Positions 992 through 64,000 of a DNA stretch of 64,000 bases are shown piece after piece. The first letter of the stretch is position 1; the number at the start of each line of letters is the position of its first letter. Source of the DNA: Sipunculus nudus (lineage: Eukaryota > Annelida > Sipuncula > Golfingiida > Sipunculidae); NCBI GenBank assembly GCA_026874595.1, contig CM049311.1, positions 16,211,676 to 16,275,675 of the forward strand. Direction: 5' to 3'. Under the pieces are notes generated by a model, which was not told where the DNA came from, ran no database searches, and worked only from the letters and a program-made list of their open reading frames with translations. A program made the position numbers and the translations under genes.

Positions 992-3900
992 TGGCTCCGA
1001 CGACAACTCCAGCTACCACCGTGGCTCCAACCACAACTCCAGCGACAACTGGTAAGCATAGTACAAGGCGAATTGGACCGATGGGACGTGACAACAATTT
1101 TCTATTTTGAATAAAAAAACTATTGTCTAAAATTGTTTCAAACAAAAAAACATTCCGGATTCGTAACACCACTTTATTTAAAAAGGTGTTCCCTGTTTCA
1201 TGCAGGGATTTTGTTTGTAAAGAAATCAAGTTACCGCATAAGGGTGGAACACGAATGGAATATTTTCTGTCTACCAATTTTTGTCTCCATGTACCTTATT
1301 TAGACTTGAATTAGGAATTCTTGACACTTGCATTTAGCAGACAAATGGAGCATTACATTCTACTGATCCAACTGCTTATTAGCCATTAAGTTTGAACTGT
1401 AAGGCTTCTATGCATCTATTGTCTTGTTAAACGGATTTAATGTTGTTTTCGGGGAACAAGTAGGAAAAACGAATTAGAGATACCATAACTTTAAGGGATT
1501 TACTTCAAATGTTTTCAATCAAACATTTTTGTATGTATATTATTCTTCAGTGGCTCCAACGACTACTCCGGCCACCACCGTTGCTCCAACCACACCTGCA
1601 GCAACAACAGGTAAGCAGGATTCATGACTCATTTAGGTATTAACTAATTACACTTTGATCAATGCCAATTGCAGGTTCCTCCACTAAGAGAAAAAAAAAA
1701 TAGAATCAGATAGAATCTCAGATAGTTTCGAAATCAATTTAACCTTTGACGCTACCGGGAACAAAACGTCCCTTCTGTGTCATGCGAATGTTATATTAGA
1801 TACAAATGATATAGGTAAACCCGAAAGAGCAAAAGTCGAGTGTTTACGTATTTTCAATATTTGATGCCTGTTTCTTTTCGGCGTTCTTTGTATGAATTTT
1901 GGACGTGAAATGTAGTTGATTCCGTTTAGCATCAACCATGTGAAATTAGCGAATGAAGGAATTCGGTTCTATGACTACATATCGATACATAGATTTAGAA
2001 CGGGTGACTTTGTATGCTGTTTACTTTTCGATCTTACAATGTTTTTTCTTACAGTGCTGATAGATCCTGTATAATTGGAACAAAAATTTTTTTTCTCTCC
2101 ACATCGTTTAACTTGTATCTTATCGAATTCCCCTTCTGATTTTACAACACGCATCACCTTTAAGCTCCTCTATGAAAGGTTTTCTTCTTTTCTTCGATCA
2201 TATTTCATTTAGCTGAATTGTATATTATTTTAACATGCGCCCAAAACAGTACCCTACTTCTGCGTTTGGGTTAAGCTTGGCAAGCTAGTATTGAGAAAGA
2301 TGGACATGATCGTCCAGCGGAATCTCTTGGGTGCAGAAAGTGAAATAATGATGCATTTTATGCGCTCAGGTTTTCCTGATCATTAAAATCCCTTACAGTA
2401 AAAAAATGGAAATTTTAATCAAATGTAGTGGAAGAATTGCTTGGATATACTAGTCCTGCTTTGGTTTCCCCTGAGACTATGCCAGTAAATTAATAATGGC
2501 TGACAACGATCGCGAGCACGAAAAGGGGTACCGAGGCACGTCAGGACCGAATATTCTATTATGGGGAAAAAGAAGTCAAAGGCAATTTAAAACATAAGGT
2601 CTATAATTAATTAGTTCATTATTGTGTTTGGCCAAAGATAATTTTACGGATATTTTGCTTTAGTGATCCCGATGACAACACTAGCCACAAACGTGGCTCC
2701 AACACACAACTCCAGTAACATCCGGTAAGCAAGATAGTGTCGTATTAAGGTTTAATTGATTAATCTCTGATTACGACCCATGTTCTAGACAACTTGGTCT
2801 TCACCTTATTGAACACTTTTCAGCATGATTTTTTGTAATTAGTTTCAAACGGAAAGTAAAATCGGGTCCGTTCCCATACCGGAGTTTTAGCGGTCTGTCC
2901 TTTTTCATGCGAAGGTTGTGTTTGATGGTTAATCAGAAATCGATCGCATCGGTCTTTATAATAATTGCCAGCTGCCCTGTCCGGAGCTATATAACTGCTT
3001 TCTTTATTTAAAATGTGAATGGAATCTGTTTTGTTTTTGCAGGCTAGGAATACAGAAATATTTCTTATATAAATGAGATTATCGATACTCACAATGCGGA
3101 GTGCTTCTACTTGAAACTGGGATGGTCTCTTGTATCCTTTAGAAAGCAATGGGAATGAATGTAAATTTTAAATGTTGACAACACTTTTCTAATTTGAAAA
3201 AAAACTATTGTCTAAAACTGTTTCAAACAAAAAACATTCCGTATTCGTTACCCCTCTTGATTTAAAAAGGTGTTCCCTCTTTCATGCAGGTATTATGTTT
3301 GTAAAGAAATCACGTTACCGCATAAGGGTAGATCATGAATAGAATATTTTCTGTCTACCAATTTTTGCCTCCATGTACCTTATACAGACTTGAAATAAGA
3401 ATTGTTGATACTTGCATTTAGCAGACAAATGAAACATTACATTCTACTGATCGAACTGCTTATTAGCCATTGAGTGTGAACTGTAAGGCTTCTATGCTCT
3501 CTATTTTCTTGTTAAACGGATTTTAAAAAAAAATGAAATTTGAATAAAATGTAGTGGAAGTATTTCTCGGATATACTAGTCATGACGTGGTTTCCCCTAC
3601 GAGTTTGCTAGTACATTATTAATGGCTGACAACGCTCACGAGCACGAAAAGGGTAACCGAGACTCGTCAGGACCGAATATTCTATTCTGCGGAAAGTGAA
3701 GTCAAATTCAATTTGAATTATGAGGTCTATCAGGATATCGACCGCAGGGGTTTTTTGAATAATTGCCTGCTGCCCTGTCCGGAGTTATATTTATATATGC
3801 TTTCTTTATTTGAAATAGGGATTGAAACTGTTTTGTTTTTGCAGGCTAGGAATAACGGAATAATTGTTATATGAATGAGATTAAAGATACTCTCAATTGC

Positions 3901-6900
3901 GGAGTGCTTCTACTTGAAACTGGGATGGTCTCTTGTATTCTTTTGAAAGCACTGGGAATGAATGTTTATTATTTTACGAGTGATTATGGGGACATTTAGT
4001 TCGAAAAATTACTGAATATTATACGCAAGGCAAGGGATAGATGACTGTCTCAGGTCTAAATTCCAATATGATGCTGTGGATTGTGTCCCTGAACTGATCA
4101 TCTAAAAATAAAAGAAAGTTAAAAAAATATACATTCTACAACCGCCTTGCCCCGAAATCCATGCCCTTTTTCACGGTTGAAGTTAGGAAAAAATGTGAAG
4201 TTAGAAGGGTCATATCTATCAAATAAAAGACTCACTTTTTGCATGAAAGGGGATTACAAATTTATTATATTTCAGTGGCTCCGACGACAACTCCAGCTAC
4301 CACCGTGGCTCCAACCACAACTCCAGCGACAACTGGTAAGCATAGTACAAGGCGAATTGGACCGATGGGACGTGACAACAATTTTCTATTTTGAATAAAA
4401 AAACTATTGTCTAAAATTGTTTCAAACAAAAAAACATTCCGGATTCGTAACACCACTTTATTTAAAAAGGTGTTCCCTGTTTCATGCAGGGATTTTGTTT
4501 GTAAAGAAATCAAGTTACCGCATAAGGGTGGAACACGAATGGAATATTTTCTGTCTACCAATTTTTGTCTCCATGTACCTTATTTAGACTTGAATTAGGA
4601 ATTCTTGACACTTGCATTTAGCAGACAAATGGAGCATTATATTCTACTGATCCAACTGCTTATTAGCCATTAAGTTTGAACTGTAAGGCTTCTATGCATC
4701 TATTGTCTTGTTAAACGGATTTAATGTTGTTTTCGGGGAACAAGTAGGAAAAACGAATTAGAGATACCATAACTTTAAGGGATTTACTTCAAATGTTTTC
4801 AATCAAACATTTTTTATGTATATTATTCTTCAGTGGCCCCAACGACTACTCCGGCCACCACCGTTGCTCCAACCGCACCTGCAGCAACAACAGGTAAGCA
4901 GGATTCATGACTCATTTAGGTATTAACTAATTACACTTTGATCAATGCCAATTGCAGGTTCCTCCACTAAGAGAAAAAAAATAGAATCAGATAGAATCTC
5001 AGATAGTTTCGAAATCTATCTAACCTTTGACGCTACCTGGAACAAAACGTCCCTTCTGTGTCATGCGAATGTTATATTAGATACAAATGATATAGGTAAA
5101 CCCGAAAGAGCAAAGGTCGAGTGTTTACGTGTTTTCAATATTTGATGCTTGTTTCTTTTCGGAGTTCTTTGTATGAATTTTGGACGTGAAATGTAGTTGA
5201 TTCCGTTTAGCATCAACCATGTGAAATTAGCGAATGAAGGAATTCGGTTCTATGACTACATATCGATACATAGATTTAGAACGGGTGACTTTGTATGCTG
5301 TTTACTTTTCGATCTTACAATGTTTTTTCTTACAGTGCTGATAGATACTGTATAATTGGAACAACAAGTTTTTTTCTCTCCACATCGTTTTACTTGTATC
5401 AAATCTGAATTCCCCTTCTGAATTTACAACACGCATCACCGTTAAGCTCCTCTATGAAAGGTTTTCTTCTTTTCTTCGATCATATTTCATTTAGCTGAAT
5501 TGTATATTATTTTAACATGCGCCCAAAACAGTACCCTACTTCTGTGTTTGGGTTGAGCTTGGCTAGCTAGTATTGAGAAAGTTGACATGATCGTCCAGCG
5601 GAATCTCTTGGGTGCAGAAAGTGAAATAATGATGCATTTTATGCGCTCAGGTTTTCCTGATCATTAAAATCCCTTACAGTAAAAAAATGGAAATTTTAAT
5701 CAAATGTAGTGGAAGAATTGCTTGGATATACTGGTCCTGGCTTGGTTTCCCCTGACACTATGCCAGTAAATTAATAATGGCTGACAACGATTGCGAGCAC
5801 GAAAAGGGGTATCGAGGCTCGTCAAGACCGAATATTCTATTCTGGGGAAAAAGAAGTCAAAGGCAATTAAAACATAAGGTCTATAATTAATTAGTTCATT
5901 ATTGTTTTTGGCCAAAGATAATTTTACGGATATTTTGCTTTAGTGATCCCGAGGACAACACTAGCCACAAACGTGGCTCCAACACACAACTCCAGTAACA
6001 TCCGGCAAGCAAGATAGTGTCGTATTAAGGTTTAATTGATTAATCTCTGATTACGACCCATGTTCTAGACAACTTGGTCTTCACCTTATTGAACACTTTT
6101 CAGCATGATTTTTTGTAATTAGTTTCAAACGGAAAGTAAAATCGGGTCCGTTCCCATACCGGAGTTTTAGCGGTCTGTACTTTTTCATGCGAAGGTTGTG
6201 TTTGATGGTTAATCAGAAATCGATCGCATCGGTCTTTATAATAATTGCCAGCTGCCCTGTCCGGAGCTATATAACTGCTTTCTTTATTTAAAATGTGAAT
6301 GGAATCTGTTTTGTTTTTGCAGGCTAGGAATACAGAAATATTTCTTATATAAATGAGATTATCGATACTCACAATGCGGAGTGCTTCTACTTGAAACTGG
6401 GATGGTCTCTTGTATCCTTTAGAAAGCAATGGGAATGAATGTAAATTTTAAATGTTGACAACACTTTTCTAATTTGAAAAAAAACTATTGTCTAAAACTG
6501 TTTCAAACAAAAAACATTCCGTATTCGTTACCCCTCTTGATTTAAAAAGGTGTTCCCTCTTTCATGCAGGTATTATGTTTGTAAAGAAATCACGTTACCG
6601 CATAAGGGTAGATCATGAATAGAATATTTTCTGTCTACCAATTTTTGCCTCCATGTACCTTATACGGACTTGAAATAAGAATTGTTGATACTTGCATTTA
6701 GCAGACAAGTGAAACATTACATTCTACTGATCGAACTGCTTATTAGCCATTAAGTGTGAACTGTAAGGCTTCTATGCTCTCTATTTTCTTGTTAAACGGA
6801 TTTTAAAAAAAATTGAAATTTGAATAAAATGTAGTGGAAGTATTTCTCGGATATACTAGTCATGACGTGGTTTCCCCTACGAGTTTGCTAGTACATTATT

Positions 6901-9900
6901 AATGGCTGACAACGCTCACGAGCACGAAAAGGGTAACCGAGACTCGTCAGCACCGAATATTCTATTCTGCGGAAAGTGAAGTCAAATTCAATTTGAATTA
7001 TGAGGTCTATCAGGATATCGACCGCAGGGGTTTTTTGAATAATTGCCTGCTGCCCTGTCCGGAGTTATATTTATATATGCTTTCTTTATTTGAAATAGGG
7101 ATTGAAACTGTTTTGTTTTTGCAGGCTAGGAATAACGGAATAATTGTTATATGAATGAGATTAAAGATACTCTCAATTGCGGAGTGCTTCTACTTGAAAC
7201 TGGGATGTTCTCTTGTATTCTTTTGAAAGCACTGGGAATGAATGTTTATTATTTTACGAGTGATTATGGGGACATTTAGTTCGAAAAATTACTGAATATT
7301 ATACGCAAGGCAAGGGATAGATGACTGTCTCAGGTCTAAATTCCAATATGATGCTGTGGATTGTGTCCCTGAACTGATCATCTAAAAATAAAAGAAAGTT
7401 AAAAAAATATACATTCTACAACCGCCTTGCCCCGAAATCCATGCCCTTTTTCACGGTTGAAGTTAGGAAAAAATGTGAAGTTAGAAGGGTCATATCTATC
7501 AAATAAAAGACTCACTTTTTGCATGAAAGGGGATTACAAATTTATTATATTTCAGTGGCTCCGACGACAACTCCAGCTACCACCGTGGCTCCAACCACAA
7601 CTCCAGCGACAACTGGTAAGCATAGTACAAGGCGAATTGGACCGATGGGACGTGACAACAATTTTCTATTTTGAATAAAAAAACTATTGTCTAAAATTGT
7701 TTCAAACAAAAAAACATTCCGGATTCGTAACACCACTTTATTTAAAAAGGTGTTCCCTGTTTCATGCAGGGATTTTGTTTGTAAAGAAATCAAGTTACCG
7801 CATAAGGGTGGAACACGAATGGAATATTTTCTGTCTACCAATTTTTGTCTCCATGTACCTTATTTAGACTTGAATTAGGAATTCTTGACACTTGCATTTA
7901 GCAGACAAATGGAGCATTACATTCTACTGATCCAACTGCTTATTAGCCATTAAGTTTGAACTGTAAGGCTTCTATGCATCTATTGTCTTGTTAAACGGAT
8001 TTAATGTTGTTTTCGGGGAACAAGTAGGAAAAACGAATTAGAGATACCATAACTTTAAGGGATTTACTTCAAATGTTTTCAATCAAACATTTTTGTATGT
8101 ATATTATTCTTCAGTGGCCCCAACGACTACTCCGGCCACCACCGTTGCTCCAACCACACCTGCAGCAACAACAGGTAAGCAGGATTCATGACTCATTTAG
8201 GTATTAACTAATTACACTTTGATCAATGCCAATTGCAGGTTCCTCCACTAAGAGAAAAAAAATAGAATCAGATACAATCTCAGATAGTTTCGAAATCTAT
8301 CTAACCTTTGACGCTACCTGGAACAAAACGTCCCTTCTGTGTCATGCGAATGTTATATTAGATACAAATGATATAGGTAAACCCGAAAGAGCAAAGGTCG
8401 AGTGTTTACGTGTTTTCAATATTTGATGCTTGTTTCTTTTCGGAGTTCTTTGTATGAATTTTGGACGTGAAATGTAGTTGATTCCGTTTAGCATCAACCA
8501 TGTGAAATTAGCGAATGAAGGAATTCGGTTCTATGACTACATATCGATACATAGATTTAGAACGGGTGACTTTGTATGCTGTTTACTTTTCGATCTTACA
8601 ATGTTTTTTCTTACAGTGCTGATAGATCCTGTATAATTGGAACAAAAATTTTTTTTCTCTCCACATCGTTTTACTTGTATCAAATCTGAATTCCCCTTCT
8701 GAATTTACAACACGCATCACCGTTAAGCTCCTCAATGAAAGGTTTTCTTCTTTTCTTCGATCATATTTCATTTAGCTGAATTGTATATTATTTTAACATG
8801 CGCCCAAAACAGTACCCTACTTCTGTGTTTGGGTTAAGCTTGGCTAGCTAGTATTGAGAAAGTTGACATGATCGTCCAGCGGAATCTCTTGGGTGCAGAA
8901 AGTGAAATAATGATGCATTTTATGCGCTCAGGTATTCCTGATCATTAAAATCCCTTACAGTAAAAAAATGGAAATTTTAATCAAATGTAGTGGAAGAATT
9001 GCTTGGATATACTGGTCCTGCCTTGGTTTCCCCTGACACTATGCCAGTAAATTAATAATGGCTGACAACGATTGCGAGCACGAAAAGGGGTATCGAGGCT
9101 CGTCAAGACCGAATATTCTATTCTGCAGAAAAAGAAGTCAAAGGCAATTAAAACATAAGGTCTATAATTAATTAGTTCATTATTGTTTTTGGCCAAAGAT
9201 AATTTTACGGATATTTTGCTTTAGTGATCCCGAGGACAACACTAGCCACAAACGTGGCTCCAACACACAACTCCAGTAACATCCGGCAAGCAAGATAGTG
9301 TCGTATTAAGGTTTAATTTATTAATCTCTGATTACAACCCATGTTCTAGACAACTTGGTCTTCACCTTATTGAACACTTTTCGGCATGTTTTTTGTAATT
9401 AGTTTCAAACGGAAAGTAAAATCAGGTCCGTTCCCATACCGGAGTTTTAGCGGTCTGTCCTTTTTCATGAGAAGTTTGTGTTTGTAGAGTATTATGATGG
9501 TTAATCAGAAATCGATCGCATGGGTCTTTAGAATAATTGCCAGCTGCCCTGTCCGGAACTATATAACTGCTTTCTTTATTTAAAATGTGAATGGAATCTG
9601 TTTTGTTTTTGCAGGCTAGGAATACAGAAATATTTCTTATATAAATGAGATTATCGATACTCACAATGCGGAGTGCTTCTACTTCAAACTGGGATGGTCT
9701 CTTGTATCCTTTAGAAAGCAATGGGAATTAATGTAAATTTTAAATGTTGACAACACTTTTCTAATTTGAAAAAAAACTATTGTCTAAAACTGTTTCAAAC
9801 AAAAAACATTCCGTATTCGTTACCCCTCTTGATTTAAAAAGGTGTTCCCTCTTTCATGCAGGTATTATGTTTGTAAAGAAATCACGTTACCGCATAAGGG

Positions 9901-57900: not shown

Positions 57901-60900
57901 AGTTTTTGCATGAAAGGGGATTACAAATTTATTATATTTCAGTGGCTCCGACCACAACACCAGCTACCACCGTGGCTCCAACCACAACTCCAGCGACAAC
58001 TGGTAAGCATAGTACAAGGCGAATTAGACCGATTGAAAGTGACAACACTTTTCTATTTTGAAAAATAAACTATTTCTAAAACTGTTTCAAACAAAAAAAC
58101 ATTCCGTATTCGTTACTCTACTGGATTTAAAAAGGTATTCCCTTTTTCATGCAGGTATTATATTTGTAAAGAAATCATGTTACCGCATAAGGGTAGATCA
58201 TGAATAGAATATTTTCTGTCTACCAATTTTTGCCTCCATGTACCTTATTTAGACTTGAAATAAGAATTGTTGATACTTGCATTTAGCAGACAAATGAAAC
58301 ATTACATTCTACTTATCAAACTGCTTATTAGCCATTATGTGTGAACTGTAAGGCTTCTATGCTCTCTATTTTCTTGTTAAACGGATTTAAAAAAAATTGA
58401 AATTTGAATAAAATGTAGTGGAAGTATTGCTCGGATATACTAGTCCTGACGTTGTTTCCCCTACGACTTTGATAGTACATTAATAATGGCTGACAAAGCT
58501 CACGAGCCCGAAAAGGGTAACCGAGGCTCGTCAGCACCGAATATTCTATTCTGCGGAAAGGGAAGTCAAAGGCAATTTGAAATATGAGGTCTATCAGGAA
58601 ATCGACCGCAGGGGTCTTTTGAATAATTGCCTGCTGCCCTCTCCGGAGTTATCTATATGCTTTCTTTTTTTGAAATAGGGATTGAAACTGTTTTGTTTTT
58701 GCAGGCTAGGAATAACGAAATAATTGTTATATGAATGAGATTATAGATACTCTCAATTGCGGAGTGCTTCTACTTGAAACTGAGATGGTCTCTTGTATTC
58801 TTTTGAAAGCACTTGGAATGAATGTTTATTTTTTTACGAGTGATTATGGGGACATTAAGTTCAAAAAATTACTGAATATTATACGCAAGGCAAGGGATAG
58901 ATGACCGGCTCAGGTCTAAATTCAAATATGATGCTGTGGATTGCATTCCTGTACTGATCATCTAAAAATAAAAGAAAGTTAACAAAATATACATTCTACA
59001 ACCGCCTTGCCCCGAAATCGATGCCCTTTGTCACGCTTGAAGTTAGGAAAAAATGTGAAGTTAGAAGGGTCATATCTATCAAATAAGAGACTCACTTTTT
59101 GCATGAAAGGGGATTACAAATTTATTATATTTCAGTGGCTCCGACCACAACACCAGCTACCACCGTGGCCCCAACCACAACTCCAGCGACAACTGGTAAG
59201 CATAGTACAAGGCGAATTAGACCGATTGGAAGTGACAACACTTTTCTATTTTGAAAAAAAGCTATTGTCGAAAACTGTTTCAAACAAAAAACATTCCGTA
59301 TTCGTTACCCCACTGGATTTAAAAAGGTATCCCCTTTTTCATGCAGGTATTATATTTGTAAAGAAGTCACGTTACCGCATAAGGGTAGATCATGAATAGA
59401 ATATTTTCTGTCTATCAATTTTTGCCTCCATGTACTTTATTTACACTTGAAATAAGAATTGTTGATACTTGCATTTAGCAGACAAATGAAACATTACATT
59501 CTACTGATCCAACTGCTTATTAGCCATTAAAGGTGAACTGTAAGGCTTCTATGCATCTATTGTCTTGTTAAACAGATTTAATGTTGTTTTCAGGGAACAA
59601 GTAGGAAAAACGAATTAGAGATACCATAACTTTAAGGGATTTACTTCAAATGTTTTCAATCAAACATTTTTGTATGTATATTATTCTTCAGTGGCTCCAA
59701 CGACTATTCCGGCCACCACCGTTGCTCCAACCACACCTGCAGCAACAACAGGTAAGCAGGATTCATGACTCATTTAGGTATTAACTAATTACACTTTGAT
59801 CAATGCCAATTGCAGGTTCCTCCACTAAGAGAAAAAAAAATAGAATCAGATAGAATCTCAGATAGTTTCGAAATCAATCTAACCTTTGACGCTACCTGGA
59901 ACAAAACGTCCCTTCTGTGTCTTGCGAATGTTATATTAGATACAAATGATATAGGTAAACACGAAAGAGCAAAAGTCGAGTGTTTACGTATTTTCAATAT
60001 TTGATGCCTGTTTCTTTTCGGCGTTCTTTGTATGAATTTTGGACGTGAAATGTAGTTGATTCCGTTTAGCATCAACCATGTGAAATTAGCGAATGAAGGA
60101 ATTCGGTTCTATGACTACATATCGATACATAGATTTAGAACGGGTGACTTTGTATGCTGTTTACTTTTCGATCTTACAATGTTTTTTCTTACAGTGCTGA
60201 TAGATCCTGTATAATTGGAACAAAAATTTTTTTTCTCTCCACATCGTTTTACTTGTATCTTATCGAATTCCCCTTCTGATTTTACAACACGCATCACCTT
60301 TAAGCTCCTCTATGAAAGGTTTTCTTCTTTTCTTCAATCATATTTCATTTAGCTGAATTGTATATTATTTTAACATGCGCCCAAAACAGTACCCTACTTC
60401 TGCGTTTGGGTTAAGCTTGGCAAGCTAGTATTGAGAAAGATGGACATGATCGTCCAGCGGAATCTCTTGGGTGCAGAAAGTGAAATAATGATGCATTTTA
60501 TGCGCTCAGGTTTTCCTGATCATTAAAATCCCTTACAGTAAAAAAATGGAAATTTTAATCAAATGTAGTGGAAGAATTGCTAGGATATACTGGTCCTGCT
60601 TTGGTTTCCCCTGAGACTATGCCAGTAAATTAATAATGGCTGACAACGATCTCGAGCACGAAAAGGGGTACCGAGGCACGTCAGGACCGAATATTCTATT
60701 ATGGGGAAAAAGAAGTCAAAGGCAATTTAAAACATAAGGTCTATAATTAATTAGTTCATTATTGTGTTTGGCCAAAGATTATTTTACGGATATTTTGCTT
60801 TAGTGATCCCGAGGACAACACTAGCCACAAACGTGGCTCCAACACACAACTCCAGTAACATCCGGCAAGCAAGATAGTGTCGTATTAAGGTTCAATTGAT

Positions 60901-63900
60901 TAATCTCTGATTACGACCCATGTTCTAGACAACTTGGTCTTCACCTTATTGAACACTTTTCAGCATGATTTTTTGTAATTAGTTTCAAACGGAAAGTAAA
61001 ATCGGGTCCGTTCCCATACCGGAGTTTTAGCGGTCTGTCCTTTTTCATGCGAAGGTTGTGTTTGATGGTTAATCAGAAATCGATCGCATCGGTCTTTATA
61101 ATAATTGCCAGCTGCCCTGTCCGGAGCTATATAACTGCTTTCTTTATTTAAAATGTGAATGGAATCTGTTTTGTTTTTGCAGGCTAGGAATAAAGAAATA
61201 TTTCTGATATAAATGAGATTATCGATACTCACAATGCGTAGTGCTTCTACTTGAAACTGGGATGGTCTCTTGTTTCCTTTAGAAAGCAATGGGAATGAAT
61301 GTAAAGTTTTTTACGAGTGGTTATGGAGACATTCAGTTCGAAAAATTATTGCAAATTATATGCAAGGCAAAGGAAAGATGACTGTCTCAGTTCTAAATTC
61401 AAAAATATACATTCTACAATAGCCTTGCCCTGAAATCTATGCCCTTTGTCCCGGTTGAAGTTAGGAAAAAAAGTGAAGTTAGAAGGGTCATATCTATCAA
61501 ATTAAAGACTCAGTTTTTGCATGAAAGGGGATTACAAATTTATTATATTTCAGTGGCTCCGACCACAACACCAGCTACCACCGAGGCTCCAACCACAACT
61601 CCAGCGACAACTGGTAAGCATAGTACAAGGCGAATTGGACCGATTGGAAGTGACAACACTTTTCTATTTTGAAAAAAAAAACTATTGTCTAAAATTGTTT
61701 CAAACAAAAAAACATTCCGTTTTCTTAACACCTCTTTATTTAAAAAGGTGTTCCCTGTTTAATGCAGGTATTATGTTTGTAAAGAAATCAAGTTACCGCA
61801 TAAAGGTGGAACACGAATGGAATATTTTCTGTCTACCAATTTTTGTCTCCATGTACCTTATTTAGACTTGAATTAGGAATTCTTGACACTTGCATTTAGC
61901 AGACAAATGGAGCATTACATTCTACTGATCCAACTGCTTATTAGCCATTAAGTTTGAACTGTAAGGCTTCTATGCATCTATTGTCTTGTTAAACGGATTT
62001 AATGTTGTTTTCGGGGAACAAGTAGGAAAAACGAATTAGAGATACCATAACTTTAAGGGATTTACTTCAAATGTTTTCAATCAAACATTTTTGTATGTAT
62101 ATTATTCTTCAGTGGCCCCAACGACTACTCCGGCCACCACCGTTGCTCCAACCACACCTGCAGCAACAACAGGTAAGCAGGATTCATGACTCATTTAGGT
62201 ATTAACTAATTACACTTTGATCAATGCCAATTGCAGGTTCCTCCACTAAGAGAAAAAAATAGAATCAGATACAATCTCAGATAGTTTCGAAATCTATCTA
62301 ACCTTTGACGCTACCTGGAACAAAACGTCCCTTCTGTGTCATGCGAATGTTATATTAGATACAAATGATATAGGTAAACCCGAAAGAGCAAAGGTCGAGT
62401 GTTTACGTGTTTTCAATATTTGATGCTTGTTTCTTTTCGGAGTTCTTTGTATGAATTTTGGACGTGAAATGTAGTTGATTCCGTTTAGCATCAACCATGT
62501 GAAATTAGCGAATGAAGGAATTCGGTTCTATGACTACATATCGATACATAGATTAAGAACGGGTGACTTTGTATGCTGTTTACTTTTCGATCTTACAATG
62601 TTTTTCTTACAGTGCTGATAGATCCTGTATAATTGGAACAAAAATTTTTTTTCTCTCCACATCGTTTTACTTGTATCAAATCTGAATTCCCCTTCTGAAT
62701 TTACAACACGCATCACCGTTAAGCTCCTCTATGAAAGGTTTTCTTCTTTTCTTCGATCATATTTCATTTAGCTGAATTGTATATTATTTTAACATGCACC
62801 CAAAACAGTACCCTACTTCTGTGTTTGGGTTAAGCTTGGCTAGCTAGTATTGAGAAAGATTGACATGATCGTCCAGCGGAATCTCTTGGATGCAGAAAGT
62901 GAAATAATGATGCATTTTATGCGCTCAGGTTTTCCTGATCATTAAAATCCCTTACAGTAAAAAAATGGAAATTTTAATCAAATGTAGTGGAAGAATTGCT
63001 TGGATATACTGGTCCTGCCTTGGTTTCCCCTGACACTATGCCAGTAAATTAATAATGGCTGACAACGATTGCGAGCAAGAAAAGGGGTATCGAGGCTCGT
63101 CAAGACCGAATATTCTATTCTGGGGAAAAAGAAGTCAAAGGCAATTTAAAACATAAGGTCTATAATTAATTAGTTCATTATTGTATTTGGCCAAAGATAA
63201 TTTTACGGATATTTTGCTTTAGTGATCCCGAGGACAACAGTAGCCACAAACGTGGCTCCAACAAACAACTCCAGTAACATCCGGCAAGCAAGATAGTGTC
63301 GTATTAAGGTTTAATTTATTAATCTCTGATTACAACCCATGTTCTAGACAACTTGGTGTTCACCTTATTGAACACTTTTCGGCATGTTTTTTGTAATTAG
63401 TTTCAAACGGAAAGTAAAATCAGGTCCGTTCCCATACCGGAGTTTTAGCGGTCTGTCCTTTTTCATGAGAAGTTTGTGTTTGTAGAGTATTATGATGGTT
63501 AATCAGAAATCGATCGCATGGGTCTTTAGAATAATTGCCAGCTGCCCTGTCCGGAACTATATAACTGCTTTCTTTATTTAAAATGTGAATGGAAGCTGTT
63601 TTGTTTTTGCAGGCTAGGAATAAAGAAATATTTCTTATATGAATGAGATTATCGATACTCACAATGCGGAGTGCTTCTACTTGAAACTGGGATGGTCTCT
63701 TGTATCCTTTAGAAAGCAATGGGAATGAATGTAAAGTTTTTTACGAGTGGTTATGGAGACATTCAGTTCGAAAAATTATTGCAAATTATATGCAAGGCAA
63801 AGGAAAGATGACTGTCTCAGTTCTAAATTCAAAAATATACATTCTACAATAGCCTTGCCCTGAAATCTATGCCCTTTGTCCCGGTTGAAGTTAGGAAAAA

Positions 63901-64000
63901 AAGTGAAGTTAGAAGGGTCATATCTATCAAATTAAAGACCCAGTTTTTGCATGAAAGGGGATTACAAATTTATTATATTTAAGTGGCTCCGACCACAACA
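1..64000 (+). CDS. Interior of a giant mucin-like gene built from tandem symmetric exons (partial at both ends)
   Basis: Seen: 51 copies (50 complete) of a 60-nt exon (types A and B), each preceded by a pyrimidine/T-rich tract ending in AG and followed by GTAAGC. All enter after codon base 1 and leave after codon base 1, so they join freely in frame. Each encodes two 10-residue units rich in Thr, Pro and Ala. Known: such tracts are typical of secreted or membrane mucins and mucin-like surface proteins that carry dense O-glycans on Thr. Inferred: the window is one transcription unit read left to right, giving about 1,000 residues of repeat if only A and B exons are joined. C, D, E and F elements lie in the introns and may be relics or alternative exons. 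No start, signal peptide, anchor or polyadenylation site can be assigned. A run of separate short genes is possible but unlikely, because no promoter or first exon recurs. Confidence 0.72.
992..1051 (+). CDS. Exon A copy 1, mucin-like 60-nt exon
   Basis: The acceptor is TATATTTCAG and the donor is G|GTAAGC. Read in phase 1 it gives V-APTTTPATT followed by V-APTTTPATT. The two 30-nt halves are themselves duplicates. The intron to the next B exon is 499 nt. The VV form of residues 1 and 11 marks this lineage, shared with copies 2–4, 7 and 17. Confidence 0.82.
1052..1550 (+). other. A-to-B intron (representative, 499 nt)
   Basis: A GT–AG intron. It contains the F element (acceptor GCAG at 1202–1205, candidate segment 1206–1303) and an AATAAA near 1110. 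Every A-to-B intron in the window is 496–499 nt, so the length is tightly kept across lineages. Confidence 0.75.
1206..1303 (+). other. F element: candidate exon or relic ending in a stop
   Basis: It begins at an acceptor (TTCATGCAG) 155 nt after exon A. In phase 1 it reads 32 residues, ending in a hydrophobic run (IFCLPIFVSMYLI) and a TAG stop. The same reading is open after A copies 1–5, 7, 11, 12, 15, 17, 21–23, 26–28 and 31. In the other modules TGG is TAG and it ends after 17 residues. No donor is needed if it is terminal. Substitutions between lineages are mostly amino-acid changing, which favours a relic. Confidence 0.25.
1551..1610 (+). CDS. Exon B copy 1, mucin-like 60-nt exon
   Basis: The acceptor is ATTCTTCAG and the donor is G|GTAAGC. 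It encodes V-APTTTPATT then V-APTTPAATT in phase 1–1. Relative to exon A, 7 of 9 base differences are synonymous. The D element starts 65 nt further on; the next A is 2,665 nt away if C and D are skipped. Confidence 0.82.
1675..1814 (+). pseudogene. Element D copy 1, frameshifted (10-A run)
   Basis: The acceptor is AATTGCAG and the donor is G|GTAAAC. The A run after AGAG has 10 bases instead of 8, so phase-1 reading meets TAG within about nine codons. It also carries private changes: TGG to GGG, CTA to TTA, and AAT in place of TAT. Confidence 0.45.
1815..2663 (+). other. D-to-C spacer (representative, 849 nt)
   Basis: It holds the E acceptor-led segment at 2055 and module backbone. The right part (from about 2,430) is homologous to the backbone at about 260–440. 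I see no other exon-like element on the + strand. Minus-strand ORFs here are not supported. Confidence 0.6.
2055..2074 (+). other. E element: acceptor followed by six codons and a stop
   Basis: A strong acceptor (TTTTTTCTTACAG) precedes TG CTG ATA GAT CCT GTA TAA. In the shared phase 1 this would add V-L-I-D-P-V and stop. It recurs 240–241 nt after the end of every D whose spacing I measured (5336, 8617, 11909, 14339, 25200). It could be a terminal exon joined to D, but no clear polyadenylation signal follows within several hundred bases. Confidence 0.22.
2664..2724 (+). pseudogene. Element C copy 1, decayed relative of exon A
   Basis: 61 nt after a GCTTTAG acceptor. It starts like A (V-I-P-M-T-T) but has one extra base in the second half, which breaks the 60-nt phase symmetry. 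This is the only C copy with a GT donor (TCCG|GTAAGC) and with ATG rather than AGG at codon 4. Confidence 0.65.
3161..3176. other. Deletion junction that removed an A exon (first copy)
   Basis: Compared with 13025–13375, about 335 bp including an entire A exon and its splice sites is missing between GAATGTAAA and TGACAACAC. The short string AATGT lies near both ends of the lost segment, which fits a microhomology or slippage deletion. Confidence 0.75.
4276..4335 (+). CDS. Exon A copy 2
   Basis: VV form, identical in residues to copy 1. TTTCAG acceptor, GTAAGC donor. The intron to B copy 2 is 498 nt (one T fewer before that B). Confidence 0.82.
4834..4893 (+). CDS. Exon B copy 2
   Basis: The second half reads V-APTAPAATT because ACA is GCA, a private Thr-to-Ala change. 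The first alanine codon is followed by CCC, not CCA, as in most B copies. The intron to the next A is 2,662 nt. Confidence 0.8.
4958..5095 (+). CDS. Candidate exon D copy 2, intact (8-A run)
   Basis: 138 nt, phase 1–1. It reads G-S-S-T-K-R-K-K-I-E-S-D-R..., then FEIYLTFDATWNKTSLLCHA and NVILDTNDI before a G|GTAAAC donor. It has one N-glycosylation sequon (NKT) and one cysteine. The pattern LTF-x-A...SLLCHA loosely resembles the E–F strands of an Ig-like domain; this is only a motif-level guess. If the donor is ignored, the frame runs on to TGA at 5143–5145. Seven sister copies are frameshifted, so constitutive use is doubtful. Confidence 0.38.
5944..6004 (+). pseudogene. Element C copy 2
   Basis: 61 nt with a GC donor (TCCG|GCAAGC). 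It reads VIPRTTLATNVAPTHNSSNI and then loses phase. Confidence 0.65.
6441..6456. other. Deletion junction that removed an A exon (second copy)
   Basis: Same junction sequence as at 3161, so the deletion predates amplification of the 3.28-kb unit. Confidence 0.75.
7556..7615 (+). CDS. Exon A copy 3
   Basis: VV form, TTTCAG acceptor, GTAAGC donor, 499-nt intron to B copy 3. Confidence 0.82.
8115..8174 (+). CDS. Exon B copy 3
   Basis: V-APTTTPATT then V-APTTPAATT. Standard splice sites. 2,673 nt to the next A exon. Confidence 0.82.
8239..8376 (+). CDS. Candidate exon D copy 3, intact
   Basis: 8-A run, open across 138 nt. Residue 13 is Thr (ACA) where copy 2 has Arg (AGA). Confidence 0.38.
9225..9285 (+). 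pseudogene. Element C copy 3
   Basis: 61 nt, GC donor, same reading as copy 2. Confidence 0.65.
9731..9748. other. Deletion junction that removed an A exon (third copy)
   Basis: Same junction as at 3161 and 6441. It is absent from the following cassette, where the A exon at 13278 is retained. Confidence 0.75.
10848..10907 (+). CDS. Exon A copy 4
   Basis: VV form, last of the 3.28-kb lineage. 499-nt intron to B copy 4. Confidence 0.82.
11407..11466 (+). CDS. Exon B copy 4
   Basis: V-APTTTPATT then V-APTTPAATT. 1,811 nt to the next A, shorter than for B copies 1–3 because the A-less module is absent. Confidence 0.82.
11531..11668 (+). CDS. Candidate exon D copy 4, intact
   Basis: 8-A run, Thr at residue 13, open to the G|GTAAAC donor. 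Confidence 0.38.
12517..12577 (+). pseudogene. Element C copy 4
   Basis: 61 nt, GC donor, frame lost in the second half. Confidence 0.65.
13278..13337 (+). CDS. Exon A copy 5 (V/E form)
   Basis: Residue 11 is Glu (GAG) instead of Val. The first half uses ACC ACA ACA codons instead of ACG ACA ACT, all synonymous. This V/E form dominates the rest of the window. 499-nt intron to B copy 5. Confidence 0.82.
13837..13896 (+). CDS. Exon B copy 5
   Basis: V-APTTTPATT then V-APTTPAATT, standard splice sites. 1,813 nt to the next A. Confidence 0.82.
13961..14098 (+). CDS. Candidate exon D copy 5, intact
   Basis: 8-A run. The third codon is TCG (synonymous), a marker shared with copies 6, 10 and 11. 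Thr at residue 13. Confidence 0.38.
14949..15009 (+). pseudogene. Element C copy 5
   Basis: 61 nt, GC donor. Confidence 0.65.
15010..15709 (+). other. C-to-A spacer (representative, 700 nt)
   Basis: It starts like the intron after exon A and contains a decayed counterpart of the F element. At the F acceptor position CAG is disrupted (TCATGAGAAG), and no open phase-1 segment follows. Further on is the cryptic acceptor string found in every module. No supported exon. Confidence 0.6.
15710..15769 (+). CDS. Exon A copy 6 (V/E form)
   Basis: TTTCAG acceptor, GTAAGC donor. The next exon is another A, 1,135 nt away, with no B/D/C between. The F element after this copy is truncated by TAG. Confidence 0.82.
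15770..16904 (+). other. A-to-A intron of an A-only module (representative, 1,135 nt)
   Basis: It contains a stop-containing F element, the backbone with the cryptic acceptor-like string, and AATAAA strings. Relative to an ABDC cassette it lacks the B-D-E-C segment entirely, and I see no remnant of B. Confidence 0.65.
16905..16964 (+). CDS. Exon A copy 7 (VV form)
   Basis: Belongs to the lineage of copies 1–4. Upstream it reads GATTAAAAATTT rather than GATTACAAATTT, a change in a possible branch-point area. 499-nt intron to B copy 6. Confidence 0.8.
17464..17523 (+). CDS. Exon B copy 6
   Basis: V-APTTTPATT then V-APTTPAATT. 1,811 nt to the next A. Confidence 0.82.
17588..17725 (+). CDS. Candidate exon D copy 6, intact
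   Basis: 8-A run, TCG third codon, Arg at residue 13. Confidence 0.38.
18574..18634 (+). pseudogene. Element C copy 6
   Basis: 61 nt, GC donor. Confidence 0.65.
19335..19394 (+). CDS. Exon A copy 8 (V/E form)
   Basis: First of three A exons in a row. 1,134-nt intron to copy 9. Confidence 0.82.
20529..20588 (+). CDS. Exon A copy 9 (VV form)
   Basis: Uses the ACC ACA ACA codons of the V/E lineage but has GTG at residue 11, so it is intermediate between lineages. 1,133-nt intron to copy 10. Confidence 0.82.
21722..21781 (+). CDS. Exon A copy 10 (VV form)
   Basis: GCC instead of GCT at residue 12 (synonymous) marks this lineage (copies 10, 14, 20, 25, 30). 496-nt intron to B copy 7. Confidence 0.82.
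22278..22337 (+). CDS. Exon B copy 7 (Thr-to-Ile form)
   Basis: First half V-APTTIPATT because ACT is ATT. This variant is always followed by a 9-A frameshifted D. 1,802 nt to the next A. Confidence 0.8.
22402..22540 (+). pseudogene. Element D copy 7, frameshifted (9-A run)
   Basis: 139 nt. In phase 1 the extra A leads to AAT AGA ATC AGA TAG, a stop about 12 codons in. Asn replaces Tyr in the ancestral frame (ATC AAT CTA). Confidence 0.45.
23390..23450 (+). pseudogene. Element C copy 7
   Basis: 61 nt, GC donor. Confidence 0.65.
24140..24199 (+). CDS. Exon A copy 11 (V/E form)
   Basis: Standard sites. 499-nt intron to B copy 8. The F element after it is open for 32 codons. Confidence 0.82.
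24699..24758 (+). CDS. Exon B copy 8
   Basis: V-APTTTPATT then V-APTTPAATT. 1,812 nt to the next A. Confidence 0.82.
24823..24960 (+). CDS. Candidate exon D copy 8, intact
   Basis: 8-A run, Thr at residue 13. After the donor the sequence is GTAAACAC, where copies 2–6 have GTAAACCC. Confidence 0.38.
25810..25870 (+). pseudogene. Element C copy 8 (variant)
   Basis: 61 nt, GC donor. It has GTA for CTA and AAC for CAC, markers shared with copies 14, 17 and 19. Confidence 0.65.
26571..26630 (+). CDS. Exon A copy 12 (V/E form) with an AAG acceptor
   Basis: The acceptor is TATATTTAAG, with the usual C at -3 changed to A. AAG acceptors are the weaker kind, so this exon may be skipped often; because it is symmetric, skipping keeps the frame. 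1,135-nt intron to copy 13. Confidence 0.7.
27766..27825 (+). CDS. Exon A copy 13 (VV form)
   Basis: Duplicate of copy 9 within the 7,237-bp repeat. 1,133-nt intron to copy 14. Confidence 0.82.
28959..29018 (+). CDS. Exon A copy 14 (VV form)
   Basis: Duplicate of copy 10 with the GCC marker. 496-nt intron to B copy 9. Confidence 0.82.
29515..29574 (+). CDS. Exon B copy 9 (Thr-to-Ile form)
   Basis: V-APTTIPATT first half. 1,802 nt to the next A. Confidence 0.8.
29639..29777 (+). pseudogene. Element D copy 9, frameshifted (9-A run)
   Basis: 139 nt. It carries CTT for CAT (His to Leu in the ancestral frame), a marker shared only with copy 18. Confidence 0.45.
30627..30687 (+). pseudogene. Element C copy 9
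   Basis: 61 nt, GC donor. Confidence 0.65.
31377..31436 (+). CDS. Exon A copy 15 (V/E form)
   Basis: Opens the second 18.1-kb copy; counterpart of copy 5. 499-nt intron to B copy 10. Confidence 0.82.
31936..31995 (+). CDS. Exon B copy 10
   Basis: Standard V-APTTTPATT then V-APTTPAATT. 1,814 nt to the next A. Confidence 0.82.
32060..32197 (+). CDS. Candidate exon D copy 10, intact
   Basis: 8-A run, TCG third codon, Thr at residue 13. Same as copy 5. Confidence 0.38.
33048..33108 (+). pseudogene. Element C copy 10
   Basis: 61 nt, GC donor. Confidence 0.65.
33810..33869 (+). CDS. Exon A copy 16 (V/E form)
   Basis: Counterpart of copy 6. 1,135-nt intron to copy 17. Confidence 0.82.
35005..35064 (+). 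CDS. Exon A copy 17 (VV form)
   Basis: Counterpart of copy 7, with the same GATTAAAAATTT change upstream. 499-nt intron to B copy 11. Confidence 0.8.
35564..35623 (+). CDS. Exon B copy 11
   Basis: Standard form. 1,811 nt to the next A. Confidence 0.82.
35688..35825 (+). CDS. Candidate exon D copy 11, intact
   Basis: 8-A run, TCG third codon, Arg at residue 13. Same as copy 6. Confidence 0.38.
36674..36734 (+). pseudogene. Element C copy 11
   Basis: 61 nt, GC donor. Confidence 0.65.
37435..37494 (+). CDS. Exon A copy 18 (V/E form)
   Basis: Counterpart of copy 8. 1,134-nt intron to copy 19. Confidence 0.82.
38629..38688 (+). CDS. Exon A copy 19 (VV form)
   Basis: Counterpart of copy 9. 1,133-nt intron to copy 20. 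Confidence 0.82.
39822..39881 (+). CDS. Exon A copy 20 (VV form)
   Basis: Counterpart of copy 10, with the GCC marker. 496-nt intron to B copy 12. Confidence 0.82.
40378..40437 (+). CDS. Exon B copy 12 (Thr-to-Ile form)
   Basis: V-APTTIPATT first half. 1,802 nt to the next A. Confidence 0.8.
40502..40640 (+). pseudogene. Element D copy 12, frameshifted (9-A run)
   Basis: 139 nt, early TAG in phase 1. Keeps CAT, unlike copies 9 and 18. Confidence 0.45.
41490..41550 (+). pseudogene. Element C copy 12
   Basis: 61 nt, GC donor. Confidence 0.65.
42240..42299 (+). CDS. Exon A copy 21 (V/E form)
   Basis: First A of the extra 2,420-bp cassette. 499-nt intron to B copy 13. Confidence 0.82.
42799..42858 (+). 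CDS. Exon B copy 13
   Basis: Standard form. 1,801 nt to the next A. Confidence 0.82.
42923..43060 (+). CDS. Candidate exon D copy 13, intact
   Basis: 8-A run, Thr at residue 13, GTAAACAC after the donor as in copy 8. Downstream sequence switches to the 9-A lineage, making this a recombinant cassette. Confidence 0.38.
43910..43970 (+). pseudogene. Element C copy 13
   Basis: 61 nt, GC donor. Confidence 0.65.
44660..44719 (+). CDS. Exon A copy 22 (V/E form)
   Basis: 2,420 bp after copy 21. 499-nt intron to B copy 14. Confidence 0.82.
45219..45278 (+). CDS. Exon B copy 14
   Basis: Standard form. 1,812 nt to the next A. Confidence 0.82.
45343..45480 (+). CDS. Candidate exon D copy 14, intact
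   Basis: 8-A run, Thr at residue 13. Confidence 0.38.
46330..46390 (+). pseudogene. Element C copy 14 (variant)
   Basis: 61 nt, GC donor, GTA and AAC markers as in copy 8. Confidence 0.65.
47091..47150 (+). CDS. Exon A copy 23 (V/E form) with an AAG acceptor
   Basis: Acceptor TATATTTAAG, as in copy 12. 1,135-nt intron to copy 24. The following F element has a private TTT-to-TTG change (GTTGGTAAAG) shared with the copy after A 28. Confidence 0.7.
48286..48345 (+). CDS. Exon A copy 24 (VV form)
   Basis: Counterpart of copy 13. 1,133-nt intron to copy 25. Confidence 0.82.
49479..49538 (+). CDS. Exon A copy 25 (VV form)
   Basis: Counterpart of copy 14, with the GCC marker. 496-nt intron to B copy 15. 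Confidence 0.82.
50035..50094 (+). CDS. Exon B copy 15 (Thr-to-Ile form)
   Basis: V-APTTIPATT first half. 1,802 nt to the next A. Confidence 0.8.
50159..50297 (+). pseudogene. Element D copy 15, frameshifted (9-A run)
   Basis: 139 nt, early TAG. Has CAT where copies 9 and 18 have CTT. Confidence 0.45.
51147..51207 (+). pseudogene. Element C copy 15
   Basis: 61 nt, GC donor. Confidence 0.65.
51897..51956 (+). CDS. Exon A copy 26 (V/E form)
   Basis: Opens the second 9,657-bp copy. 499-nt intron to B copy 16. Confidence 0.82.
52456..52515 (+). CDS. Exon B copy 16
   Basis: Standard form. 1,801 nt to the next A. Confidence 0.82.
52580..52717 (+). CDS. Candidate exon D copy 16, intact
   Basis: 8-A run, Thr at residue 13. 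Same as copy 13. Confidence 0.38.
53567..53627 (+). pseudogene. Element C copy 16
   Basis: 61 nt, GC donor. Confidence 0.65.
54317..54376 (+). CDS. Exon A copy 27 (V/E form)
   Basis: 2,420 bp after copy 26. 499-nt intron to B copy 17. Confidence 0.82.
54876..54935 (+). CDS. Exon B copy 17
   Basis: Standard form. 1,812 nt to the next A. Confidence 0.82.
55000..55137 (+). CDS. Candidate exon D copy 17, intact
   Basis: 8-A run, Thr at residue 13. Confidence 0.38.
55987..56047 (+). pseudogene. Element C copy 17 (variant)
   Basis: 61 nt, GC donor, GTA and AAC markers. Confidence 0.65.
56748..56807 (+). CDS. Exon A copy 28 (V/E form) with an AAG acceptor
   Basis: Acceptor ATTTAAG, as in copies 12 and 23. 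1,135-nt intron to copy 29. Confidence 0.7.
57943..58002 (+). CDS. Exon A copy 29 (VV form)
   Basis: Counterpart of copy 24. 1,133-nt intron to copy 30. Confidence 0.82.
59136..59195 (+). CDS. Exon A copy 30 (VV form)
   Basis: Counterpart of copy 25, with the GCC marker. 496-nt intron to B copy 18. Confidence 0.82.
59692..59751 (+). CDS. Exon B copy 18 (Thr-to-Ile form)
   Basis: V-APTTIPATT first half. 1,802 nt to the next A. Confidence 0.8.
59816..59954 (+). pseudogene. Element D copy 18, frameshifted (9-A run)
   Basis: 139 nt, early TAG. Carries the CTT marker of copy 9, 30,177 bp away. Confidence 0.45.
60804..60864 (+). pseudogene. Element C copy 18
   Basis: 61 nt, GC donor. Confidence 0.65.
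61554..61613 (+). CDS. Exon A copy 31 (V/E form)
   Basis: Last complete A. 499-nt intron to B copy 19. Confidence 0.82.
62113..62172 (+). CDS. Exon B copy 19
   Basis: Standard form. 1,811 nt to the next A. Confidence 0.82.
62237..62373 (+). pseudogene. Element D copy 19, frameshifted (7-A run)
   Basis: 137 nt. One A too few gives AGA AAA AAA TAG, a stop within nine codons. Thr codon (ACA) at residue 13 places it in the otherwise intact lineage, so this loss is independent of the 9-A and 10-A copies. Confidence 0.45.
63223..63283 (+). pseudogene. Element C copy 19 (variant)
   Basis: 61 nt, GC donor, GTA and AAC markers. Confidence 0.65.
63984..64000 (+). CDS. Exon A copy 32, partial at window edge, AAG acceptor
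   Basis: Only the first 17 bases are present, after TATATTTAAG. Position and acceptor match copies 12, 23 and 28. Confidence 0.65.

Follow-up and report, generated by a model that had tools for sequence, protein, structure and literature searches.

The stretch of DNA analysed here (hereafter the window) is 64,000 bases long and spans positions 16211676-16275675 of contig C6 (CM049311.1) of the Sipunculus nudus assembly, which comprises 1.43 Gb in 153 contigs and in which bacterial contigs are also present. In this assembly a globin exon has its best PDB matches in the molluscan entries 'Nerve hemoglobin' and 'Hemoglobin II/III'; molluscan haemocyanin yielded no match, with an equally silent control for that family, and the bacterial cytochrome oxidase reached 52-58% identity among 80 retained loci, from which records close to this genome may be absent. 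The window carries a regular array of short exons on its plus strand (Table 1). A first-pass annotation had proposed 50 complete phase 1-1 exons of 60 nt flanked by AG and GTAAGC, the first at position 992, each encoding two 10-residue units and together accounting for about 5% of the DNA, and our analysis agrees on every one of these points. A search for AG-N60-GTAAGC returned 50 matches on the plus strand, all of them the repeat exon, and 0 on the minus strand, whereas 100 first-order Markov simulations of the window yielded a mean of 0.43 chance matches and a maximum of 3. All 50 exons start with TGG, are in phase 1-1 and encode two 10-residue units, and their coding share is 4.7% (50 x 60 = 3,000 of 64,000 bases). 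A similarity scan free of any splice-site requirement found 69 plus-strand copies, of which 50 are intact and 19 are decayed; the minus strand had none.

Table 1. Exon array features within the window (window positions; complete exons run to 62172)
Feature	Position	Strand	Remark
Exon array portion inside window	992-64000	+	Whole array on C6: 16134276 or earlier to 16305528
A exon	992-1051	+	
B exon	1551-1610	+	
Degenerate c copy	2664-2724	+	61 nt, GT donor
A exon	4276-4335	+	
B exon	4834-4893	+	
c copy	5944-6004	+	GC donor
A exon	7556-7615	+	
B exon	8115-8174	+	
c copy	9225-9285	+	GC donor
A exon	10848-10907	+	
B exon	11407-11466	+	
c copy	12517-12577	+	GC donor
A exon	13278-13337	+	
B exon	13837-13896	+	
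c copy	14949-15009	+	GC donor
A exon	15710-15769	+	
A exon	16905-16964	+	
B exon	17464-17523	+	
c copy	18574-18634	+	GC donor
A exon	19335-19394	+	
A exon	20529-20588	+	
A exon	21722-21781	+	
B exon	22278-22337	+	
c copy	23390-23450	+	GC donor
A exon	24140-24199	+	
B exon	24699-24758	+	
c copy	25810-25870	+	GC donor
A exon	26571-26630	+	AAG acceptor
A exon	27766-27825	+	
A exon	28959-29018	+	
B exon	29515-29574	+	
c copy	30627-30687	+	GC donor
A exon	31377-31436	+	
B exon	31936-31995	+	
c copy	33048-33108	+	GC donor
A exon	33810-33869	+	
A exon	35005-35064	+	
B exon	35564-35623	+	
c copy	36674-36734	+	GC donor
A exon	37435-37494	+	
A exon	38629-38688	+	
A exon	39822-39881	+	
B exon	40378-40437	+	
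c copy	41490-41550	+	GC donor
A exon	42240-42299	+	
B exon	42799-42858	+	
c copy	43910-43970	+	GC donor
A exon	44660-44719	+	
B exon	45219-45278	+	
c copy	46330-46390	+	GC donor
A exon	47091-47150	+	AAG acceptor
A exon	48286-48345	+	
A exon	49479-49538	+	
B exon	50035-50094	+	
c copy	51147-51207	+	GC donor
A exon	51897-51956	+	
B exon	52456-52515	+	
c copy	53567-53627	+	GC donor
A exon	54317-54376	+	
B exon	54876-54935	+	
c copy	55987-56047	+	GC donor
A exon	56748-56807	+	AAG acceptor
A exon	57943-58002	+	
A exon	59136-59195	+	
B exon	59692-59751	+	
c copy	60804-60864	+	GC donor
A exon	61554-61613	+	
B exon	62113-62172	+	
c copy	63223-63283	+	GC donor
51st exon (A)	63984-64000	+	Truncated by window end; AAG acceptor

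The intact exons are of two types, A (31 of 50, donor GTAAGCATA) and B (19 of 50, donor GTAAGCAGG); the acceptor is AAG rather than CAG in 3 of the 50. Only 8 distinct sequences occur among them, so that their uniformity stems partly from recent copying and the 50 exons do not amount to 50 independent observations. The predicted 20-residue forms are VAPTTTPATTVAPTTTPATT (16 exons), VAPTTTPATTEAPTTTPATT (15 exons), VAPTTTPATTVAPTTPAATT (13 exons) and VAPTTIPATTVAPTTPAATT (5 exons), plus one further variant. The first-pass annotation named the unit VAPTTTPATT, which does not hold throughout for the second unit: 15 of the 50 exons read EAPTTTPATT there and 19 read VAPTTPAATT or VAPTAPAATT. Thr, Ala, Pro and Val make up 47.5%, 22%, 20% and 8.5% of the 1,000 predicted residues, and Ser and Cys are absent. 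Thr/Ala/Pro-rich compositions of this sort are typical of O-glycosylated mucin domains, and in its Thr/Pro-rich tandem repeats the predicted protein resembles mucins in the broad sense. No Pfam family matched the repeat at the cut-off, nor did any PDB chain with E up to 1; judged by its residues, it would probably provide a dense scaffold for O-glycosylation.

Joined without the decayed copies, the 50 A and B exons contain no stop in any of the three frames, and an open frame alone is consequently weak evidence of coding. Long ORFs that repeat with the units (up to 138 aa on the plus strand and 116 aa on the minus strand) were considered and set aside as chance ORFs: four that were scanned had no Pfam match, and those on the plus strand cross the A exons in a different frame. 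No Rfam family and no tRNA were found in the window.

The 19 decayed copies, absent from the first-pass annotation, form a third class, which we call c. Each is 61 nt long and has a TAG acceptor (19 of 19), and the donor position reads GCAAGC in 18 of the 19, GTAAGC being found only in the copy at 2664. When all c copies are joined with the 50 exons, each frame acquires 18 to 21 stops, so that they must be skipped if the array codes. The c copies would then be former exons that are necessarily left out of the message. The earlier statement that any change in copy number or splicing always yields an in-frame product accordingly applies to the 50 A and B exons; were the 19 c copies of 61 nt spliced in, it would fail.

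The array extends beyond the window on both sides, from 16.134 to 16.306 Mb of C6, and the window is its middle. At least 121 repeat exons were counted over 171 kb, 74 of them fully read and 47 recognised by junction match. The 74 are the intact repeat exons of 108,325 contiguous bases (16211676-16320000); they consist of 72 exons with 60 nt and a single 57-nt exon, all recovered by pattern, and one exon at 16298814 with donor GTAAAC, which lies outside the regular expression and was added by hand. The 47 left-hand exons are known as junctions only, except where sequence was read, and correspond to exon-donor junction matches from 16134324 to 16209992 among the matches listed (100 of 160); the junction pattern gave 160 matches as against 0 for its reversed control. 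Five further matches to the first-half pattern within the array, with no donor-pattern match, were left out of the exon count. Upstream on C6, exons of 54 nt were detected at 16105998, 16106560, 16107454, 16108359 and 16119221 by a scan that required phase 1-1, and further exons of the same type lie near 15.87 Mb. The upstream 54-nt exons and the 15.87 Mb cluster are possibly part of the same gene as the array. The scans for 54-nt exons and for last repeat exons required both phase 1-1 and a Thr/Pro-rich reading, so that the phase of these exons is not independent support.

Copies within the window follow a strict order, in which at least one A exon is followed by B, then c, then A again. Their spacings are nearly constant (556-559 bp from A to B, 1110-1113 from B to c, 1193-1195 from A to A), and c is separated from the next A by either 750-762 or 1612-1623 bp. 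Superimposed on this order are higher-order copies, with 99.83% identity over about 15 kb at a lag of 9,657 bp and 99.84% identity over about 10 kb at a lag of 18,100 bp. Such near-identical larger blocks point to recent expansion via duplication or unequal exchange. Units up to 99.8% identical are also a known assembly hazard, and an artefact that inflated their number could mimic such an expansion. We hold this to be very improbable, as distinct marker variants define 11 copy types whose order changes along the array, the fully read 108 kb contain no N, and units at the array edges diverge more than inner ones. If the blocks are genuine, the array would grow or shrink through recombination or duplication within its long introns. 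Such events leave the frame unchanged, since all working exons are phase-symmetric and a multiple of 3 nt long.

Do these exons code for protein? Related exons were found on C2, C6, C15 and C17, with one pattern match on C13, using a 35-place pattern over the first 33 exon bases that gave 448 matches, some exons matching twice, as against 6 for the reversed control. Of the 100 listed matches, 40 remain once the main array is set aside except for its left edge, and 31 of these were read unfiltered, including the one at 16134274 on the left edge; left out were 6 of the 10 places on C17 and 3 places on C2 where the pattern had matched the second unit. None of the 31 exons has a stop codon in the expected frame. 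A GT stands exactly 60 nt on in 30 of them, at a position outside the pattern, the exception being the C13 exon, which has 54 nt and a weak donor; the AG acceptor is missing in one (C6 15974208). The exons on C15 use the donor GTTAGT and had been overlooked by an earlier pattern scan.

Since codon statistics for the first half of the exon are biased by the search pattern, we relied on the pattern-free half. Across the 31 exons the mean difference per site in that half is 0.405 at third codon positions, as against 0.165 and 0.138 at first and second positions, respectively. A set of 19 exons, hand-chosen and filtered for Thr/Pro-rich readings, with several members from one cluster, gave 0.336, 0.115 and 0.077 at third, first and second positions of the pattern-free half (pN/pS 0.29), and 0.454, 0.113 and 0.071 over the whole exon, where the pattern distorts the values. 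This set excludes near-identical copies, 54- and 57-nt exons, fragments and the last repeat exons at 16.80 and 16.88 Mb. Between loci, the intron flanks match at 0.752 and 0.750, compared with 0.746 after shuffling. The excess of third-position differences, together with introns that can no longer be aligned, argues for translation of the exons as judged from their sequences.

Diversity within the window is less telling. A exons have a pi of 0.024 as against 0.070-0.076 in the flanking introns, whereas B exons (0.016) are no less diverse than the adjacent introns (0.009-0.015 in three adjacent stretches, 0.071 in a fourth further off), and the presumably dead c copies are themselves somewhat reduced (0.013 as against 0.019-0.034 around them). 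Because the copies are homogenised, we give little weight to this test. A formerly coding array that now spreads like a satellite, its exons unexpressed or untranslated, would account for the B exon values, as well as for the presence of only 8 sequences among 50 exons, the 99.8% identity of the higher-order copies, the amplification of 19 decayed copies alongside intact ones and the lack of a 5' end among our findings. Such a pseudogene array is nevertheless unlikely in view of the third-position bias between loci with unalignable introns, the intactness of 50 of the 69 copies found with no splice-site requirement, the other 19 being a single decayed class, and the terminal 3' exons kept at seven loci.

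These terminal exons lie to the right of the window. The last repeat exon of the array has 57 nt (16305472-16305528). The exon that follows it, at 16305985-16306011, is 27 nt long and in phase 1-1, and its donor is GTAAGTCT. The pattern of this short exon occurs 6 times genome-wide as against 0 for the reversed control, namely at 16.306, 16.399, 16.801, 16.876 and 16.911 Mb of C6 and at 93.875 Mb of C2, and a 33-nt form exists at 19.091 Mb of C6. At all seven loci, a Thr-rich exon of 57-60 nt precedes the 27- or 33-nt exon, whose donor is GTAAGTCT throughout, in a scan that required phase 1-1. A generic splice-site search for further 3' exons was weak since the matrix used gives A acceptors low scores, and comparison of paralogues worked better. 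It yielded two candidate cysteine exons, one of 62 nt at 16307107-16307168 (phase 1 to 0), reading EPCNQEHVGLCYQLGNGTVQF including the split codon, and one of 84 nt at 16307500-16307583, reading LADYRNCILLEDDDYKTANSVSCSDTNA. Copies of both exist at 19.09 Mb, and the 16.80 Mb locus has the first one as well, with 52% residue identity, so that in stretches of 4-5 kb at the 6 other loci the first is present at 2 and the second at 1; neither was seen in such stretches at 16.40, 16.88 and 16.91 Mb or on C2. As the residue identities between two copies (86% and 79% for the two exons) are not clearly above the 79% DNA identity over the surrounding 1.5 kb, we treat the cysteine exons as no more than candidates. 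The intron that separates them from the 27-nt exon holds a dispersed repeat, with 49 of the 52 listed matches at other loci.

Gel-forming mucins are characterised by VWD, CysD or cystine-knot domains. No domain emerged from a translated Pfam search of 8.8 kb and 10 kb of 3' flanking sequence at the C6 and C17 arrays, and the Pfam matches of the joined candidate 3' peptide all stayed below the curated cut-off. A terminal domain common to both arrays was also sought by comparing the C6 and C17 flanks and was discarded: the matches listed consist of repeat units and dispersed repeats.

The array could also comprise several separate genes, each using part of the exons, as might be suggested by its sub-blocks, by the other exon clusters on the same contig and by the fact that no promoter or 5' exon was found. 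We find this division doubtful. The only 27-nt exon near the array is the one at 16305985, the next being at 16399360, and none occurs between 15.87 and 16.30 Mb even with up to 2 mismatches. Additionally, a 1.6-kb probe from the 3' end, for which 40 of 99 candidates were scored, has 52 listed matches, of which only those at the array end and at the 19.09 Mb locus of C6 extend beyond query position 817.

Taken on its sequence, the window is quite likely the middle of a single plus-strand mucin-like gene from a dispersed family, with one repeat pair per exon. The first-pass annotation had put forward a gene of phase-symmetric, mucin-like coding exons, a model strengthened by the third-position bias, the unalignable introns and the two-exon 3' ending at seven loci. 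Such a gene would be transcribed and spliced as one continuous unit, in which each 60-nt phase 1-1 exon would add 20 residues, that is, two units of approximately VAPTTTPATT; at least 121 repeat exons would precede the 27-nt exon, probably followed by the cysteine-containing 3' exons. Scanning of four stretches (63.7 kb) gave 0 candidates for a signal-peptide or 5' exon, and we consequently only infer that the product is secreted. A glycosylated product of this kind may serve in mucus or in a surface coat, and its number of repeats may vary.

Schistosome micro-exon genes code mainly through symmetric exons of up to about 36 nt. The repeat exons described here (54-60 nt) exceed that size, and only the 27-33 nt exon of the 3' end falls within it. 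The nearest plan returned by a literature search on exon-encoded mucin repeats, conducted outside subscription papers, is that of SmPoMuc from Schistosoma mansoni. The 27-bp exon 2 of SmPoMuc is repeated with its flanking introns in units of about 1 kb, in up to about 20 copies (PMC2576457). SmPoMuc exons average 60 bp and are under purifying selection, the genes form a multigene family at several loci with concerted evolution, and transcripts carrying 1 to 100 repeats as well as variation between individuals have been shown (PMC2576457). Both systems have a short exon for a Thr/Pro-containing repeat (Ser/Thr/Pro in SmPoMuc) in tandem exon-intron units, several loci and, to judge from the near-identical blocks within the present array, concerted evolution of the repeats. 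They differ in the repeat itself and in exon length (60 nt encoding two 10-residue units as against 27 nt), in copy number (at least 121 as against about 20 at most, or about six times) and in the higher-order blocks of the present array. The array may thus follow the working principle of SmPoMuc with another repeat and more exons, a likeness that we take as architectural only. The designation of the system as undescribed was only partly right in this light (PMC2576457). The five repeat strings were absent from the non-subscription literature searched. With so clear a precedent for this mode of growth, the surprise is limited.

Other comparisons are more distant. Spider silk genes, to which the SmPoMuc account likens its own genes, also spread their protein repeats over tandem exon-intron units whose introns are homogenised (PMC2576457), but silk repeats are not of mucin type, and the coding share of the present array is only about 5%. 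A 2026 preprint states in its abstract that all mucins harbour a large VNTR exon (PMC13345508). Human VNTR mucins likewise have a tandem-repeat region that varies by copying, yet within one large exon, whereas in the present array every repeat pair has an exon to itself. The Xenopus integumentary mucins FIM-A.1 and FIM-C.1 carry trefoil domains, in contrast to the array 3' flanks scanned, which have no Pfam domain; FIM-C.1 is described as highly polymorphic by alternative splicing (PMC7177656).

A bolder reading, to which we give little credence, would have a giant locus (171 kb or more with no fewer than 121 exons, possibly over 430 kb if it reaches 15.87 Mb) encode a surface or mucus coat of hypervariable length. 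Unequal exchange between intron blocks and skipping of any number of exons would then generate lengths specific to individuals and cells, always in frame, and the c copies would be exons expelled through loss of their donor.

If expressed, the array would be an extreme case in which a repeat pair per exon takes the place of one long repeat exon. Such a locus could serve to test how introns keep changes in copy number from causing frameshifts, and in what way more than 100 near-identical introns are spliced in order within one gene. As their 60-nt exons lie scattered among about 95% intron, genes of this kind may be missed or fragmented by gene predictors.

Each B exon in the window is followed by a decayed copy of the 60-nt exon (c), so that the amplifying unit itself preserves, in these c copies, a trace of the exons it has lost. 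Eighteen of the 19 carry a GC donor, the sole GT donor being that of the first copy in the window. A c3-type copy precedes all four of the A exons that have an AAG acceptor in place of CAG. When the window's 50 intact A and B exons are joined, all three frames are open, the alternative ones reading WLRPQHQLPP... and GSDHNTSYHR....

Features of the array and its surroundings on contig C6
Feature	Location	Strand	Remark
Decayed c copies (n=19)	window 2664-2724 (first) to 63223-63283 (last)	+	
A exons with AAG acceptor	window 26571, 47091, 56748, 63984	+	
Five 54-nt exons	C6 16105998-16119274 (L117 998-3412 and L001 4221-4274)		read phase 1-1; scan asked for phase 1-1
Dispersed repeat in 3' intron of array	C6 16306104-16306776 (L005 6104-6776)		probe search
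Separate repeat, common to contig C17	near C6 16307.5-16308.4 kb		
Inverted paralogue of array's 3' end	C6 19080801-19103100 (L113, L108, L115, L109)	-	

Upstream of the 60-nt array, the 54-nt exons encode a shorter Thr/Pro/Ala/Ser repeat, and four of the five are spaced about 0.6-0.9 kb. At the other end, where the dispersed 3'-intron repeat lies, a 1.6-kb probe from the 3' end of the array had 49 of its 52 listed matches at other loci (40 scored of 99 candidates). The inverted paralogue consists of DNA blocks mostly about 73-80% identical over about 9 kb and holds few repeat exons. On contig C15, six exons of a cluster (L095, C15 54252458-54259649) have a GTTAGT donor and the two other exons read have GTAAGT.

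The assembly also holds bacterial contigs. Cytochrome oxidase gave near-equal matches, nine in all, on eight contigs (C60 [L007], C61 [L008], C62, C66, C72, C74, C75 and C89, two of which were read); these matches suggest that several strains of one bacterium were co-assembled with the animal. The hits to named genomes that this search retained share only 52-58% identity with the bacterial cytochrome oxidase.
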